Shown here piece by piece: positions 2,214 through 6,944 of a stretch of 6,944 bases of DNA (its first letter is position 1; each line of letters opens with the position of its first letter). The position numbers and the translations under genes were made by a program. Source of the stretch: Nitrospinota bacterium. GTDB taxonomy: Bacteria; Tectomicrobia; Entotheonellia; J063. The notes under the pieces are model-generated. The model had not been told where the DNA came from. It searched no databases and saw only the letters and a list, made by a program, of their open reading frames with translations. The stretch is taken from positions 1 through 6,944 of the forward strand of contig RFHZ01000013.1 in the NCBI GenBank assembly GCA_003696125.1. The letters run 5' to 3'.

Positions 2214-3026
2214 TTACCGGGCTTTGGCCTCCCAGGTATCGGCTGTCCAGGTATGAGGACGGTGACAGCGCACGCAACGGTTGATGGCCCGGCGCTCAAA
2301 ATGGGCCTGGTCCTCGGTGATGTCCTCATGACAGGAGAGGCAATCGAAGAAGTCGAGGAAGGGTTTGGTGTGTGGTTTATGGCATTCAGCACACTCAAAG
2401 GCCATGGGGCCGTCTTCGGGAAAGGTCTCCTCCTTGATCTGCATCCCCTGGTGGCACTCCAGGCAGGTTTCCCGCTTGGGGAGCATCTCCTCCACATCGT
2501 CCCCACGGGCCAGGAAGTTATGACAGGTGGTGCAGTGAAACCCTGCCATGCCCCCGATGTTCATGCGGGAGTGGCTGTGGCAACGCTGGCAATCCTCGGC
2601 TTTCGGTTCAAAGGTGTGCAGGGAGGGGAGGTGGCAGGCGAGACACTGGAGATCGGCCTTCATCACATGCTGTTTGTGTCCCACCGTATCCGCAACCAGT
2701 TTCCACGGCCCGTTCTGCGCAAAGTGACACGACTCACACACCCGGCGATCCAGGCGTGTGTGGGGAGGGACCTCTTCGATGTCGCTGACCGCCCAGCTCC
2801 AGACGATCCTGGCGCGAGAGACGATATCCTGTTTATGACAGGTCTTGCAGGTCACATCCTTATGCGCCCCTACAGACCAGGTCTTCCAGGCTTTCTTCAT
2901 GATATGACACGAGGCACAAAAGCGAGGATCATGCTCGGTATAGTCGTACAGGCGGTAGCCCCCGTAGGCGATTCCTCCCACAATTACCAGCCCCAGTATC
3001 AACAAAACCACCTTCAGCACTCTCAT
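2214..3026 (-). CDS. Membrane-anchored decahaem cytochrome, NapC/NirT/NrfH-like N-terminus
   Basis: A 270-residue protein with one N-terminal transmembrane helix (about residues 4-24) and ten CxxCH sites at 37, 60, 97, 128, 146, 165, 188, 212, 229 and 251. The first reads CASCHIM, the CxxCHxM form in which the Met serves as haem ligand in NrfH. With the following WSVGAHKDVTCKTCH it marks a NapC/NirT/NrfH-type quinol-oxidising head. NapC and NrfH have four haems, so six more are appended, many spaced under 25 residues. Later sites carry CxxCHxPH (212-219, 251-258), as in c3/doubled-CxxCH cytochromes. Likely role: take electrons from menaquinol at the inner membrane and pass them to a periplasmic carrier, probably the tri-haem protein encoded just upstream. 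ImcH of Geobacter is a functional analogue with seven haems; identity is not claimed. The stop lies 3 bp from that of the convergent gene. An AGGAGGAG sits about 12 nt before the ATG, a rather long spacing. Confidence 0.9.
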   Translation of the reverse strand: MRVLKVVLLILGLVIVGGIAYGGYRLYDYTEHDPRFCASCHIMKKAWKTWSVGAHKDVTCKTCHKQDIVSRARIVWSWAVSDIEEVPPHTRLDRRVCESCHFAQNGPWKLVADTVGHKQHVMKADLQCLACHLPSLHTFEPKAEDCQRCHSHSRMNIGGMAGFHCTTCHNFLARGDDVEEMLPKRETCLECHQGMQIKEETFPEDGPMAFECAECHKPHTKPFLDFFDCLSCHEDITEDQAHFERRAINRCVRCHRPHTWTADTWEAKAR

Positions 3027-3050
3027 GACGCTGCGTCTCTCCTCCTCTCA

Positions 3051-3084
3051 GGCGGGGAGGAGCCTTACAAAGGCCCTCCCCGCC
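3051..3084. other. Strong hairpin between tri-haem and decahaem genes
   Basis: The arms 3051-3060 (GGCGGGGAGG) and 3075-3084 pair perfectly. Inside them GCCTT (3062-3066) pairs with AAGGC (3070-3074) around an ACA loop. This gives 15 bp with a single bulged A at 3061. On the transcribed - strand it lies between the tri-haem stop and, 4 nt beyond the stem, the AGGAGGAG of the decahaem gene. No T-tract follows. It may set the ratio of the two proteins through mRNA stability or translation. Confidence 0.65.
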
Positions 3085-3097
3085 CCTAAGATAGACG

Positions 3098-3478
3098 TTA
3101 TTTCTTCACATGACACTTGGTGCAGTTGGCCTTATCCTTCACCGTAAAGGCCTTGCTGCCGTTGTGGCAGGCACCGCAGAACTGCCCTTTTCCCATGGCC
3201 GCCATGGTGATCTTCCCCTTCTTCTTTTCCGTCTTGCCTCGCTTCATCTGGAAGATCTTGATATGGCAGTTCTTGCACTTCAATCCCTTCTCTTCCACGT
3301 GCAGCTTGTGACTGAAGATCACATTGGGCTGGTCTCCGGTCTCGGTGAAGGCAAAATCCTTGGGGAGCCTTCGCGCCTCCAGGGATTGCTGCGGTAGCGC
3401 CAGGAAGACCAGAAACGATGCCATTGCCACCACGGACATGATTCCCAACCACTTCCTTGCCGTCGAGTACTTCTGCAT
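3098..3478 (-). CDS. Periplasmic tri-haem cytochrome, c7-like
   Basis: A 126-residue exported protein. The start chosen is the ATG at 3478, with AGGAGG 6 nt upstream. An in-frame ATG at 3508 would add ten residues (MGIFRERRRS) but has no comparable ribosome site. Residues 1-35 form a signal peptide ending near SLEA. The mature part has FSHKLHVE (55-62), whose two His are likely distal ligands, and three CxxCH sites: CKNCH 68-72, CGACH 101-105 and CTKCH 119-123. The order F-x-H-x-x-H, then three haems with a Lys-rich stretch between the first two, fits the tri-haem c7/cytochrome c3 family, which includes periplasmic shuttles of Geobacter. The ITMAAMGKGQFCGACHNG segment resembles a distinct tri-haem subgroup from memory. 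The basic mature protein would suit docking to acidic partners. It lies upstream of the decahaem gene in the same direction, suggesting it receives electrons from that protein. Confidence 0.88.
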   Translation of the reverse strand: MQKYSTARKWLGIMSVVAMASFLVFLALPQQSLEARRLPKDFAFTETGDQPNVIFSHKLHVEEKGLKCKNCHIKIFQMKRGKTEKKKGKITMAAMGKGQFCGACHNGSKAFTVKDKANCTKCHVKK

Positions 3479-3484
3479 GCTTCG

Positions 3485-3490
3485 CCTCCT
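3485..3490 (-). promoter_or_regulatory. Ribosome binding site of the tri-haem gene
   Basis: AGGAGG on the - strand, 6 nt before the ATG at 3478. It decides the start in favour of this ATG over the one at 3508. Confidence 0.75.
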
Positions 3491-3532
3491 TTCTCTGAAA
3501 ATACCCATTCCTACCTCTCAATGAATACCTGA

Positions 3533-3570
3533 CCTGCCACCTCTAACCAACCAAAAGAGACGGGGGCAGG
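3533..3570 (-). other. Possible leader hairpin upstream of tri-haem gene
   Basis: CCTGCC (3533-3538) is complementary to GGCAGG (3565-3570), and inside them CTCT (3541-3544) to AGAG (3556-3559), leaving an asymmetric internal loop and an 11-nt apical loop. It would lie in the mRNA leader. The arms are short, so this is weak. Confidence 0.25.
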
Positions 3571-3579
3571 GGGGAGCAC

Positions 3580-3595
3580 GGGGAATGCACTCCCC
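3580..3595. other. Imperfect 16-nt palindrome near predicted transcription start
   Basis: GGGGAATGCACTCCCC is an inverted repeat with one mismatched pair. It begins at the predicted start of the tri-haem transcript, where a repressor site or leader hairpin could lie. Confidence 0.35.
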
Positions 3596-3602
3596 ATAGC
3601 AT

Positions 3603-3631
3603 ATAATAGCACCACCCTGGCCTACAAACAA
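3603..3631 (-). promoter_or_regulatory. Candidate sigma70-type promoter for tri-haem/decahaem genes
   Basis: On the - strand TTGTTT (3631-3626) and TATTAT (3608-3603) are separated by 17 nt, giving a predicted start near 3596. The -10 matches consensus at five of six bases; the -35 only at its TTG core. The poor -35 would suit a promoter needing an activator. Confidence 0.35.
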
Positions 3632-3637
3632 GGAAAG

Positions 3638-3650
3638 GTTACCGGGTAAC
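3638..3650. promoter_or_regulatory. Operator-like palindrome upstream of the -35
   Basis: GTTACCGGGTAAC is a perfect 6-bp inverted repeat around one base. Its centre is about 48 nt upstream of the predicted start of transcription, a place where activators often bind. The protein that might bind it is unknown. Confidence 0.35.
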
Positions 3651-3689
3651 GTCATATTTTGTTTCTGTGCCTCCCTCACCCGGGCGAAT

Positions 3690-3714
3690 AGGGACGCAGC
3701 GGCGCTGCGTCCCT
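3690..3714. other. Perfect 11-bp hairpin downstream of 12-haem gene
   Basis: AGGGACGCAGC (3690-3700) pairs with GCTGCGTCCCT (3704-3714) around GGC. It lies 44 bp past the 12-haem stop codon. No T-tract follows on the - strand, so it is an mRNA 3' end structure, a non-canonical terminator or a REP-like dispersed palindrome. Confidence 0.55.
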
Positions 3715-3722
3715 GCCAGGCT

Positions 3723-3735
3723 GGCTTCCGAAGCC
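3723..3735. other. 13-nt palindrome just after 12-haem gene
   Basis: GGCTTCCGAAGCC is symmetrical around its central base and lies 22 bp past the stop codon. The flanking CCAGGC (3716-3721) and GCCTGG (3749-3754) are also complementary, so the two could stack into a longer structure ahead of the 11-bp hairpin. Confidence 0.4.
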
Positions 3736-3757
3736 TCGTCACCTCTGTGCCTGGCGC

Positions 3758-5452
3758 TCAATACCGTTTCGGATCATGGTTCTTCCCATGGCACCGGAGA
3801 TAGCAGGCCCCCTTAAACCTCCCCTGCGACTCAAAACGGAGCTGTCCGCTGGAGCTGGGTGAAACGACGGTGGTATCGAAGTTGATCAGCTTGCTGTTGT
3901 TTATGCTGTTTCCCTGCGTGGCGCTGATGCCGTGCGGGTCGTGACAGACGTTACAGGGGGCCTTTTCTCCCTGGATATGCTTCTTGTGCTCCTTAAAACT
4001 CTGATCCCCCAGGATGCTGTTGCGACTGTGACACTTGTAGCAGAGGGCATAGACGGCACTGCTCTCCCTGGTGTTATCCGTGGTCACATACTGTCGCTCC
4101 AGGAGCGGAACAAAGGTGGAGCCGTGCGGGCCGTTGGGTCCAGCCCCCCCGGCACCGGGACCGGCGTTGTTATTGTGGCAATCGGTGCATTTGATGACAC
4201 TGGTGGTGGTGAGAGGGGCGATCAGGCTCGGCACGTTCGGATTGACCCCGGGCCCGACCACCGGATGAAAGGAGGGATTGGAGGTGCTGAACTCCAGGCG
4301 GACATTGGTCTGGGCGAGCTGGCGGGTGGTGCGGGGAGGGGGTTTGTTCGGGCTGTCGGCATGACAGCGGAAGCAGATCTCGTACTCAAAGGTAGCGGTA
4401 GCCACCTCTGCCCCGGTAATGCTCACGCCCCGCACCCCGGCCAGGGGGCCGGAAGGGGTACCGGCACCGGGATAGGCGGCATGCGGGTTATGGCAATCGA
4501 CACATTCCACATGCCGGGTACCTACCACCGCCGCCTCTCTCGGGTCATGGACCCCTATCGTATCCCCTACCGGATGCCGGGAGACCTTGCTGAATTCGGC
4601 CTGGATATTCTGTGTGGCCACATTGCCGTTATGACACGGGTAGCAGTTATCCTCCTCCACCGCATAGTTGAGGAGCCGCTCATGCCCCCCGGCCGTGTGG
4701 GGCCGGTGACAGTTCTCACACCCGTTGTCGGTTACCGTGTTCCAGGTGGTATGGGGCCAGGGATCCGGACCGCTTCCGTTCCAGGTGGCGGTAGAGGTCT
4801 TATGAATGCTCTGGTTCCAGAAGTTCTTGGTGTGACAGGTGGTACAGAGGGCTGCTCCCTGGTTCGACATCACCAAAAACTTCCCAAAGGCATTGTTATG
4901 TGCATCGTGACAGCTCGTGCACTGCAATTGCCCGCTGGAATCCAGCCGGACCGGACCGGTGAGGGTCAGCGGATCCACCAACTCCCCGTTGGCCGCCGCC
5001 AGGCTGCTGGTATAGGGAAAGGAGATCGGGTGATCGTCGGAGAGATCGGTCTCCAGCCGTCCTGGTCCGGCCGGCATGGTGGTGATGCCGCTCACCATGC
5101 TGATGGGAACCGGTTCGCTCAGCACCTCTCCCAGGGCAATGGTGCCGTCGTGGCAGCTCAGACAGAGAATAGAGGCACCGGTGGGTTGTCCCGGAGAAGC
5201 AACCGCGGTCGAGCTGGAATAGGGGGTGTAGTAATTCCCCGGGTCTTGCCGGTTCCAAAGCGGCGGCCGGGGAGAGGAATTATGCGGGGTATGACAGAAG
5301 ATACAGATCCGCGTCTCCTCTATCGCCTTCACCGGTCCCGGCCCACTGACCGACAGGTTATGCTTGGTGGTGGCAATGCCCCCCTCGACCGCAGGGGAAA
5401 AAGAGATAAGCACGACCATTGCCAGCCCGAGGAAAAGCCACTTCTCTCTCAT
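3758..5452 (-). CDS. Secreted dodecahaem cytochrome, doubled-CxxCH type
   Basis: A 564-residue protein with a signal peptide (about 1-24, MREKWLFLGLAMVVLISFSP then AVEGG). Eleven CxxCH sites start at 50, 97, 178, 203, 245, 270, 317, 360, 422, 471 and 500, and the twelfth is a CX3CH (CYLRCH, 550-555) near the C-terminus. Several carry the CxxCHxPH form of doubled-CxxCH cytochromes (50-57, 245-252, 317-324, 500-507). The N-terminal pattern KHNLSVSGPG, IFCHTPHN, PLWNR, CLSCHDGTIALG is familiar from large Geobacter-type outer-surface or periplasmic cytochromes. Isolated His in DDHPISF, SRHPVG and SFHPVVG are candidate distal ligands. Linkers rich in Gly, Pro, Ser, Thr and Asn (for example 430-445) suggest an extracellular protein. 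The ATG overlaps the stop of the lipoprotein gene (ATGA) and has GGAGG 6 nt upstream, so the two are translationally coupled. Probable role: electron carrier at or beyond the outer membrane, with the barrel and lipoprotein. No lipobox is seen. Confidence 0.9.
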   Translation of the reverse strand: MREKWLFLGLAMVVLISFSPAVEGGIATTKHNLSVSGPGPVKAIEETRICIFCHTPHNSSPRPPLWNRQDPGNYYTPYSSSTAVASPGQPTGASILCLSCHDGTIALGEVLSEPVPISMVSGITTMPAGPGRLETDLSDDHPISFPYTSSLAAANGELVDPLTLTGPVRLDSSGQLQCTSCHDAHNNAFGKFLVMSNQGAALCTTCHTKNFWNQSIHKTSTATWNGSGPDPWPHTTWNTVTDNGCENCHRPHTAGGHERLLNYAVEEDNCYPCHNGNVATQNIQAEFSKVSRHPVGDTIGVHDPREAAVVGTRHVECVDCHNPHAAYPGAGTPSGPLAGVRGVSITGAEVATATFEYEICFRCHADSPNKPPPRTTRQLAQTNVRLEFSTSNPSFHPVVGPGVNPNVPSLIAPLTTTSVIKCTDCHNNNAGPGAGGAGPNGPHGSTFVPLLERQYVTTDNTRESSAVYALCYKCHSRNSILGDQSFKEHKKHIQGEKAPCNVCHDPHGISATQGNSINNSKLINFDTTVVSPSSSGQLRFESQGRFKGACYLRCHGKNHDPKRY

Positions 5453-6486
5453 TCCTTGCCTCCAACGTACCGGAAGACCTGTACCCGCTGGTTGTGGGAA
5501 TCGGCCACATAGATGGTATCATCTCTATCGATAAAGATCCCGGTAGGGAGCCAGAACTCTCCCGGTCCCCGTCCCTGGCTGCCGAAAGAGAGGAGAAACT
5601 CCCCCTGCCGGTTAAAGATCTGCACGGCGTGGAAGAGGGAATCGACCACATAGATATGCCCAAAGCTATCCGTGGCGACCCCTTTGGGACGGGAGAAATC
5701 CCCGCTGGCATCCCCCAGCCGGCCAAAGGTACCCCAAAAGTCTCCCTCACCGTCAAAGATCTGGATGCGGAAATTCAAGGCATCGGTAATCAGAAGGTGC
5801 TCGGAGCGGTCCTGCCAGATGGCGACCGGATAGTTAAATTCCCCTTCTCCCCTGCCCCGCCGGCCAAAGGTGAAGAGAAGGGAGCCGTCTCTGGCAAAGA
5901 CCTTTACCTGATGCGCCCCGGTATCCACCACATAGAGACGCTCATGCGGGGGGTCCAGAGCAAGGGCGGTCGGCTGCTTCAGTCCAGCCTCTAAAGAGAG
6001 CGGGACGGCCTCCCTGGTCCCGGGAGCGATCCGCAAGATCTGGGCGAGGAGAGAATCGGCGACCAAGACCTCCCCCTCTGCACCCAGCGCCAGTCCCACC
6101 GGAGAGGGGAGCGGTCTTCCTCCCTTCCTCCGGATCAGGTCGTACCGCTTCTGGACAAGGTCAAAGCGATGCACCCCGTTGGCCCCGGGATCGGCCACGT
6201 ACAGCACATCCCCTGCAGCCACAACGGCCATGGGTCGGATCAGCCGCGCCGTAGAGCTCCCGCCCAACAGCTCCCCTACCCGCTGCCAGAACCCCTTGCT
6301 GATCCCCAGGTCCTCTGGCCGGGAAAAGCTCTGGAGAAAGCGGACACGGGGTGGGGCCGGAGGAGGAGGCCAGACCAGTGGGGTCTCCAGCACCGGCTGT
6401 GGTTTTCCCTGGGGCCGGGCACAGGCTCCTAACAGGAGCAGGACCATAACCACCAGGGTTAACCGGCATCGCCTCCTGGCCATCAT
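5449..6486 (-). CDS. NHL-repeat beta-propeller lipoprotein
   Basis: A 345-residue lipoprotein starting at the ATG at 6486. The frame extends upstream to an ATG at 6558, but that would overlap the barrel gene and place 24 residues before the signal peptide. Residues 1-21 (MMARRRC, then a hydrophobic core) end in a lipobox L-G-A-C22, and Ala at +2 favours the outer membrane. A Pro-rich linker (about 38-50, WPPPPAPPRVRF) leads to six NHL-type repeats near 84-110, 128-153, 171-197, 219-245, 266-292 and 313-339. Each has the pattern P-x-(G/A)-(V/I)-A, (L/I)-(Y/L)-V-(A/V)-D, and V-x-V-F, as in GHIYVVDS or DTIYVADS. Six repeats predict a six-bladed propeller. NHL propellers mostly bind proteins or other ligands; no catalytic residues are evident. 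It lies 4 nt after the barrel gene and overlaps the 12-haem gene by 4 nt, so a scaffold role in an outer-membrane cytochrome complex is plausible, though not shown. Confidence 0.9.
   Translation of the reverse strand: MMARRRCRLTLVVMVLLLLGACARPQGKPQPVLETPLVWPPPPAPPRVRFLQSFSRPEDLGISKGFWQRVGELLGGSSTARLIRPMAVVAAGDVLYVADPGANGVHRFDLVQKRYDLIRRKGGRPLPSPVGLALGAEGEVLVADSLLAQILRIAPGTREAVPLSLEAGLKQPTALALDPPHERLYVVDTGAHQVKVFARDGSLLFTFGRRGRGEGEFNYPVAIWQDRSEHLLITDALNFRIQIFDGEGDFWGTFGRLGDASGDFSRPKGVATDSFGHIYVVDSLFHAVQIFNRQGEFLLSFGSQGRGPGEFWLPTGIFIDRDDTIYVADSHNQRVQVFRYVGGKE
5459..5463 (-). promoter_or_regulatory. Ribosome binding site of the 12-haem gene
   Basis: GGAGG on the - strand, 6 nt before the ATG at 5452, lies inside the last codons of the lipoprotein gene. 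It supports the overlapping start. Confidence 0.7.
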
Positions 6487-6490
6487 CAGC

Positions 6491-6944
6491 TTAAAACTCC
6501 CGTCGAATCTCCATTTTAATCCGGGTCTTGTCCCGCTCAAAGTCCCCCTGCTCTTCATGATCGAACTCCCCTTCTGCCCGGAGGATCAGTCGCCGGATCC
6601 GCCACTCTCCCAGGAGCCGGAAAAATTGGGTCTTCCGCTCCAGCGTTCCTCCTCGATCCTGGTCAGAGCGGAATTCGGCCGACAGTCGCATTCTCCGGCG
6701 GGGAAAGAACTCCAGGCGAAAGTGGAACGCCAGCGCGTCCACATCCTCCGGCGAATCGAAGTTGTCTACCAGGGTACGGTTAAAGCCGGTGAAGAAGAGG
6801 AGGGAGGAGGCCAGGGGAGCCTGCAAAAAGGCGGCATAGCTCGTGCGCCGGAACGGGGCGATGTCCTCCTCCTGCTCCTCGAACTCCCCGCTCCCCCCCA
6901 ACACAAAACCGCCCAGGGGGATATGGAGCTGTACACCGTAGAGA
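6491..6944 (-). CDS. Outer-membrane beta-barrel protein (probable porin), C-terminal part
   Basis: The frame is open to the right edge; 150 C-terminal residues are present and the N-terminus is outside the window. A GTG at 6904 is internal, since the frame continues before it with YGVQLHIPLGGF. The sequence alternates polar and hydrophobic or aromatic residues in stretches of about ten, separated by charged turns: AFHFRLEFF, RLSAEFRS, FFRLLGEWRI, LILRAEGEF, IKMEIRREF. It ends in Phe, the C-terminal signature recognised by the BAM assembly machinery. There are no Cys and no haem motif. The turns are rich in Asp, Glu and Arg. Followed at 4 nt by the NHL lipoprotein and then the 12-haem gene, it is a good candidate for the barrel of a porin-cytochrome conduit. 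The exact barrel family cannot be told from this fragment. Confidence 0.8.
   Translation of the reverse strand, partial: LYGVQLHIPLGGFVLGGSGEFEEQEEDIAPFRRTSYAAFLQAPLASSLLFFTGFNRTLVDNFDSPEDVDALAFHFRLEFFPRRRMRLSAEFRSDQDRGGTLERKTQFFRLLGEWRIRRLILRAEGEFDHEEQGDFERDKTRIKMEIRREF
6497..6501 (-). promoter_or_regulatory. Ribosome binding site of the lipoprotein gene
   Basis: GGGAG on the - strand, within the last codons of the barrel gene, lies 10 nt before the ATG at 6486 and 13 nt before the next ATG. It supports 6486 as the start. Confidence 0.45.

Follow-up and report, generated by a model that had tools for sequence, protein, structure and literature searches.

The window, which is the whole stretch of DNA analysed, comprises the entire contig RFHZ01000013.1 (6,944 nt; G000:C365) of a fragmented MAG with 990 contigs and 8% contamination, whose small host phylum is represented by five genomes in the compared set. 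On the minus strand it carries, in order, the C-terminus of a beta-barrel, an NHL-propeller lipoprotein, a 12-haem secreted cytochrome (hereafter UetJ), a tri-haem c7 protein and a TM-anchored NapC/NrfH-like 10-haem protein (Table 1). An earlier note had placed these five genes on one strand in this order, and all of them were confirmed by open reading frames, motif counts and profile matches.

Table 1. Features of the window with their positions and the basis of each assignment
Feature	Position	Strand	Basis
Large outer-membrane beta-barrel, C-terminal 150 aa (UetC-type), 5' end past contig	6491..6943	-	Homology to relatives' barrels
NHL six-bladed propeller lipoprotein (UetH/I-type), ATG directly after barrel stop	5449..6486	-	PF01436, PF17170, lipobox
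12-haem secreted cytochrome (UetJ-type), start overlaps NHL stop	3758..5452	-	Motifs, alignment, AF2
OmcE-nanowire-like tetrahaem domain of UetJ (residues 25-209)	4826..5380	-	phmmer, Foldseek, VIA
Eight-haem C-terminal domain of UetJ, MtrA-like (weak)	3761..4825	-	VIA, TIGR03508, separate gene in G018 (L019:8720-9739)
11-bp hairpin between 12-haem and c7 genes	3691..3713	-	91-nt stretch -36.9 kcal/mol, z -2.4
Extended -10-like sequence TGCTATTAT upstream of c7	3599..3611	-	From sequence; under promoter-scan threshold
Tri-haem c7 periplasmic cytochrome (same type as UetD/E/G)	3098..3508	-	TIGR04257 77 bits vs cut-off 40; PF14522 over cut-off
Membrane-anchored NapC/NrfH-like 10-haem cytochrome	2214..3026	-	PF03264, PDB 2j7a

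The first three genes, for barrel, NHL protein and 12-haem cytochrome, are closely coupled: the NHL start, which is most likely at 6486/6483 rather than at 6558, lies four bases past the barrel stop (6491 to 6486), and the start of the 12-haem gene overlaps the NHL stop as ATGA. A gap of about 250 nt then separates the 12-haem gene from the c7 gene, which is followed after 71 nt by the NapC-like gene. The strong hairpin in this gap is a possible terminator or processing site, and the extended -10-like site, judged from its sequence, might serve as a promoter of c7's own; hence, it is not evident that both halves share one transcript. The plus strand encodes two adjoining cytochromes composed of repeated class I cytochrome c units, at positions 3-965 (three haems, 5' end open) and 1008-2210 (four haems), which converge on the NapC-like gene and stop 3 bases short of it. 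The motif MWNHxP recurs in them, and relatives with 37-41% identity are present in several other genomes.

The UetJ of the window nests among Pseudomonadota sequences (98 SH-aLRT), for which lateral transfer is the preferred explanation, with contamination of the MAG as the possible alternative. This preference is based on GC and tetranucleotide composition, since the window agrees with the MAG's own contigs at 0.76-0.89, within or close to the mutual range of those contigs, and fits the related Gammaproteobacterial loci more poorly (0.33-0.59).

UetJ contains 11 CXXCH motifs and one CX3CH motif (residues 550-555). The 12 haem histidines, including the one in CX3CH, are each at least 99% conserved among 79 sequences, and therefore the so-called undecahaem protein binds, by motif, twelve haems; 11 and 12 motifs have been counted in the published UetJ cluster (PMC10734462). 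Sixteen further histidines are at least 95% conserved; four of these correspond in the alignment to OmcE's four distal histidines, and another, H217, comes just after haem 4. For modelling by AlphaFold2 an alignment of 80 sequences was used, giving a model with pLDDT 91.0 and pTM 0.85; an alignment of five sequences, intended for a search of conserved stretches, was too divergent and was discarded. The first 209 residues are homologous to OmcE (PDB 7tfs, phmmer E 1e-30), and the N-terminal domain is homologous also to another multihaem cytochrome chain in the PDB, 9yuq. Using Foldseek, OmcE was the sole significant PDB match (TM 0.75 on target), and in the model residues 30-208 adopt the OmcE nanowire fold, as shown by VIA-align (Z 15.6, 2.0 A over 178 residues). 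Each of the four OmcE haem sites is retained, as is each of the four distal histidines. However, an OmcE-type subunit ends directly after haem 4, and UetJ continues for 355 further residues.

The best likeness for the eight-haem C-terminal domain encoded by this extension is MtrA (6r2q_A; VIA-align Z 7.5, 4.3 A over 209 residues), which lies in the background range and hence serves as a weak, model-based lead only; OcwA was also matched in the PDB comparison (Z 4.4). The MtrA/DmsE profile TIGR03508 matches all of the 44 C-domains scanned, below its cut-off of 192.2 bits (54.7 and 44.7 bits), with the window member far below. In the same MAG, the contig G000:C836 (L022) encodes a 10-haem protein resembling the UetJ C-domain, with 39% identity to residues 174-564, which adjoins a YVTN-like propeller and 6- and 7-haem cytochromes.

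The barrel fragment at 6491-6943 has no Pfam match and is homologous to complete barrels of ~670 aa that occupy the equivalent position in relatives (phmmer to 9e-24; family HMM). Its N-terminus is missing because the window is a whole contig of a fragmented MAG, and a search for it elsewhere in the MAG returned the window only. An HMM grown from window-like barrels gathered 63 members of one family, mostly of 650-750 aa, 50 of which are encoded directly upstream of the NHL orthologue, and left the barrels of two clusters in G018 and G055 unmatched. A full-length relative in L039, again without a Pfam match, was modelled by AF2 with pLDDT 92.6 and about 28-30 strands. Its first Foldseek match is MtrB of Shewanella (PDB 6R2Q complex), which in VIA-align has the longest aligned length (454) with a Z of 15.2, tied with BtuB1-BtuG1, itself a barrel that has a lipoprotein partner, and with others. 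One Planctomycete member of the family just reaches the general porin model PF13609. The barrel is MtrB-sized, lies outside every annotated transport family and belongs to the same family in the loci of relatives.

A scan of GTDB genomes identified 330 relatives, and the best 80 of the 330 loci, which were kept, span ten named phyla with a UetJ tree that mostly follows the phyla. In 76 of the 80 loci, by a strict test, the gene immediately upstream of the 12-haem gene is an orthologue of the NHL lipoprotein, which is a six-bladed propeller (PF01436 98 bits, PF17170 67 bits) with the lipobox LGAC. Among the 55 loci of at least 12 kb, NHL1 is present in 53, the barrel in 50, a second NHL gene in 49 and a tetrahaem gene in 47, with all four in 44. 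Such OmcE-like tetrahaem (UetA-like) genes are found in 52 of the 80 loci and end right after haem 4, like OmcE; the one protein tested matches 7tfs at 4e-22, and the haem sites and distal histidines of OmcE are 92-100% conserved in 57 UetA-like neighbours. UetJ is divided between two neighbouring genes in G018 (L019:7770-8561 and L019:8720-9739), as expected if its halves work together, and near these genes are a c7 gene, two NHL genes and another OmcE-like gene. The propeller, regarded earlier as an extra subunit, is a standard part of the module, with two per cluster in most relatives. The idea of a self-contained export module with a gene order conserved in other genomes stands for the widely conserved barrel, NHL and 12-haem unit, whereas the c7/NapC-like half is not kept beside it in the 80 loci.

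Relatives also differ in additional cytochrome genes. Directly before the barrel, a multihaem gene (5 to 19 haems) is present in about 30 of them, being a 5-haem gene in 24. In L031, L034, L047, L051, L069 and others, the gene before the barrel encodes a small lipoprotein-like cytochrome with five haems and a signature of the FDGVP type, which could be a periplasmic barrel plug. The Gammaproteobacterial loci, which are closest to the window, are without this 5-haem gene and carry 8- and 7-haem genes right after UetJ. A separate UetA was not found in the MAG, in which short contigs read as N and the contig ends upstream of the barrel; the window contains no peptidyl-prolyl isomerase UetB, which may lie past the contig end. 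Another electron-transfer cluster of the same MAG, G000:C300 (L130), contains a PPIase-like fragment, 26-haem and 16-haem cytochromes, an NHL protein and a further 5-haem ORF. An OmcE-like tetrahaem gene is also present on a putative giant-phage contig (IMG/VR IMGVR_UViG_3300009031_000221, 536 kb; L028:4935-5549 / L164:10001-10615), within an array of 18 tRNA genes and a tmRNA and near an RtcB ligase gene; a search for a second viral copy found none.

On the inner-membrane side, the 10-haem protein shows a TM segment at its N-terminus, a NapC/NirT N-terminal domain (PF03264, 30.1 bits vs a cut-off of 24.1), a first haem site CASCHIM of the CXXCHXM type and similarity to NrfH (PDB 2j7a, 2e-7 over residues 9-66). 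The NapC/NrfH anchor and quinol-site haem are joined to eight more haems, and the total of 10 CXXCH departs from the NapC/NrfH norm of four to five. From these sequence features, it is a putative quinol dehydrogenase. The flanks of the 80 related loci yielded no convincing homologue of the NapC/NrfH N-domain or of the c7 gene, and in two genomes the full-length relatives of the 10-haem protein have a ferredoxin-type Fe-S gene, and not the module, as their neighbour. In 12 of the 80 loci a b561-like cytochrome that may be another kind of inner-membrane module is encoded nearby, and therefore one outer-membrane module may be coupled with different quinone modules depending on the host.

Taken with the observed gene set, its conservation and the OmcE fold with its conserved ligands, the window is read as a Uet-type extracellular electron-transfer locus in which UetJ would act as a filament socket in the barrel, a reading that is held to be evenly poised between right and wrong. 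The NapC/NrfH-like protein would oxidise inner-membrane quinol, or reduce quinone if electrons flow inwards, the c7 protein would shuttle electrons through the periplasm, and the barrel with UetJ would carry them across the outer membrane. Within UetJ, the MtrA-like eight-haem part would wire the MtrB-sized barrel, and the OmcE-like domain would be exposed outside the cell, where an OmcE-like (UetA) filament would attach by its first subunit through a subunit-bridging histidine-haem contact of the OmcE-OmcE kind. The NHL lipoprotein might hold barrel and cytochrome together as a surface propeller. That UetJ anchors an OmcE-type nanowire, one chain supplying both the barrel wire and the first outside filament subunit in at least ten phyla, is put forward as a tentative proposal with the balance tilted against it.

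The socket reading is favoured, at the level of sequence, by the module of NHL, UetJ, barrel, OmcE-like tetrahaem protein and second NHL in ten named phyla, and the models point weakly in the same direction, with MtrA for the C-domain and MtrB as the best Foldseek match of the barrel belonging to the same complex. Against it are the background range of the former match and the tie of the latter with BtuB and others, the absence of a UetA from the MAG and the adjacency of c7 and NapC that is not conserved. In addition, deletions of cytochrome genes in NHL-bearing clusters of Desulfovibrio ferrophilus, which are likened to this locus by their NHL content, left Fe(III) oxide reduction unaffected (PMC9769857), and this result counts against the proposed explanation. 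The 5-to-19-haem protein, mostly 5-haem, encoded before the barrel in about 30 relatives could moreover be the real barrel wire. UetJ would then be wholly extracellular, an OmcA/MtrC-like terminal cytochrome at the surface reusing the OmcE fold, with a separate periplasmic 5-haem or 8-haem cytochrome filling the barrel, as the 8- and 7-haem genes right after UetJ in Gammaproteobacteria would also allow. This arrangement is considered unlikely, since the loci nearest to the window are without the 5-haem gene, the C-domain resembles MtrA, if weakly, and the MtrC structure is absent among the matches listed. The full ligand set in the OmcE domain might likewise suggest that UetJ polymerises by itself into a nanowire with 12 haems per subunit and that UetA forms a different filament. 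Nevertheless, OmcE and UetA-like proteins end after the fourth haem and the 355 extra residues of UetJ would probably occupy one filament face, which renders this option highly improbable.

The composition of the system itself is a further point, since the c7 and NapC-like genes may be unrelated neighbours serving another acceptor, the barrel-NHL-UetJ trio alone constituting a single system. The gap with its hairpin and possible promoter, the absence of the pair near the module in the 80 loci and the Fe-S gene adjoining the 10-haem relatives in two genomes argue for such a separation. However, both genes are on the same strand and adjacent to the trio, tri-haem c7 proteins are named Uet parts (PMC10734462), the c7 gene of G018 also adjoins its NHL/OmcE cluster, and the b561-like cytochrome in 12 loci may replace the NapC-like protein as the inner-membrane module. 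Separation is thus regarded as a real possibility that falls somewhat short of probable.

If the socket reading holds, UetJ architecture suggests a way to plug an extracellular cytochrome wire into the cell surface. Secretion and outer-membrane anchoring of cytochrome nanowires were called still speculative in a 2025 review (PMC12307469), and a conserved OmcE-type domain fused to a second wire domain, beside genes for a barrel and OmcE-like subunits, offers a concrete and testable candidate for a nanowire anchor. With the relatives described here, the range of the Uet system also grows beyond Proteobacteria to include many uncultured phyla. The published Uet descriptions compared make no mention of OmcE as the fold of UetJ or as the family of UetA, of a conserved twelfth haem site, of an occurrence in ten phyla or of a nanowire-socket role, although an earlier notice of some of these is possible.

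Several known systems share parts of this architecture. The OetABI conduit of Geobacter and ANME partner SRB (PMC10553843), likened by description, is also encoded with nanowire-type cytochromes, but OetA and OetB are separate cytochromes and no NHL protein is reported in the main text of that paper. The porin-MHC clusters of freshwater Verrucomicrobia (PMC5615132), again likened by description, combine multihaem cytochromes with a barrel of 20 strands or more; some relatives of the window module are Opitutae loci, whereas NHL and OmcE-like parts are not mentioned for those clusters. MtrAB of Shewanella (PDB 6R2Q) likewise places a large barrel beside a multihaem wire and gives the best, though weak, PDB matches for the barrel (Foldseek) and the eight-haem domain. 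MtrA differs from UetJ in having 10 haems and no nanowire domain. To our knowledge, the Mtr system is without an NHL protein. The OmcE nanowire of Geobacter sulfurreducens (PDB 7TFS) has its fold, four haem sites and four distal histidines in common with the first 209 residues of UetJ, and its subunit ends where UetJ goes on with the eight-haem domain.

The closest counterpart is Uet (undecaheme electron transfer), described in Ca. Tenderia electrophaga / Tenderiales and Gallionella with the parts UetA (tetrahaem), UetB (PPIase), UetC (barrel), UetD/E/G (tri-haem c7), UetH/I (NHL) and UetJ (undecahaem) (PMC10734462, PMC12575090); UetJ with an associated porin has also been reported in Leptothrix relatives (PMC13386937). 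The earlier note, which was right about a conserved outer-membrane unit, had overlooked both this already named system and the OmcE nanowire domain in the 12-haem protein. By published gene content, rather than by comparison with Tenderia sequences, the window shares with Uet the cytochrome with 11 CXXCH, one NHL protein, one tri-haem c7 (TIGR04257) and probably the barrel, of which it has the C-terminal 150 aa. It differs in the NapC/NrfH-like 10-haem protein after c7, the absence of UetA and UetB from the window, the CX3CH that makes its UetJ a 12-haem protein by motif, and a host from another, small phylum. The locus is real, well conserved and a variant of the known Uet system, with the nanowire-to-conduit fusion as its novel and testable part.
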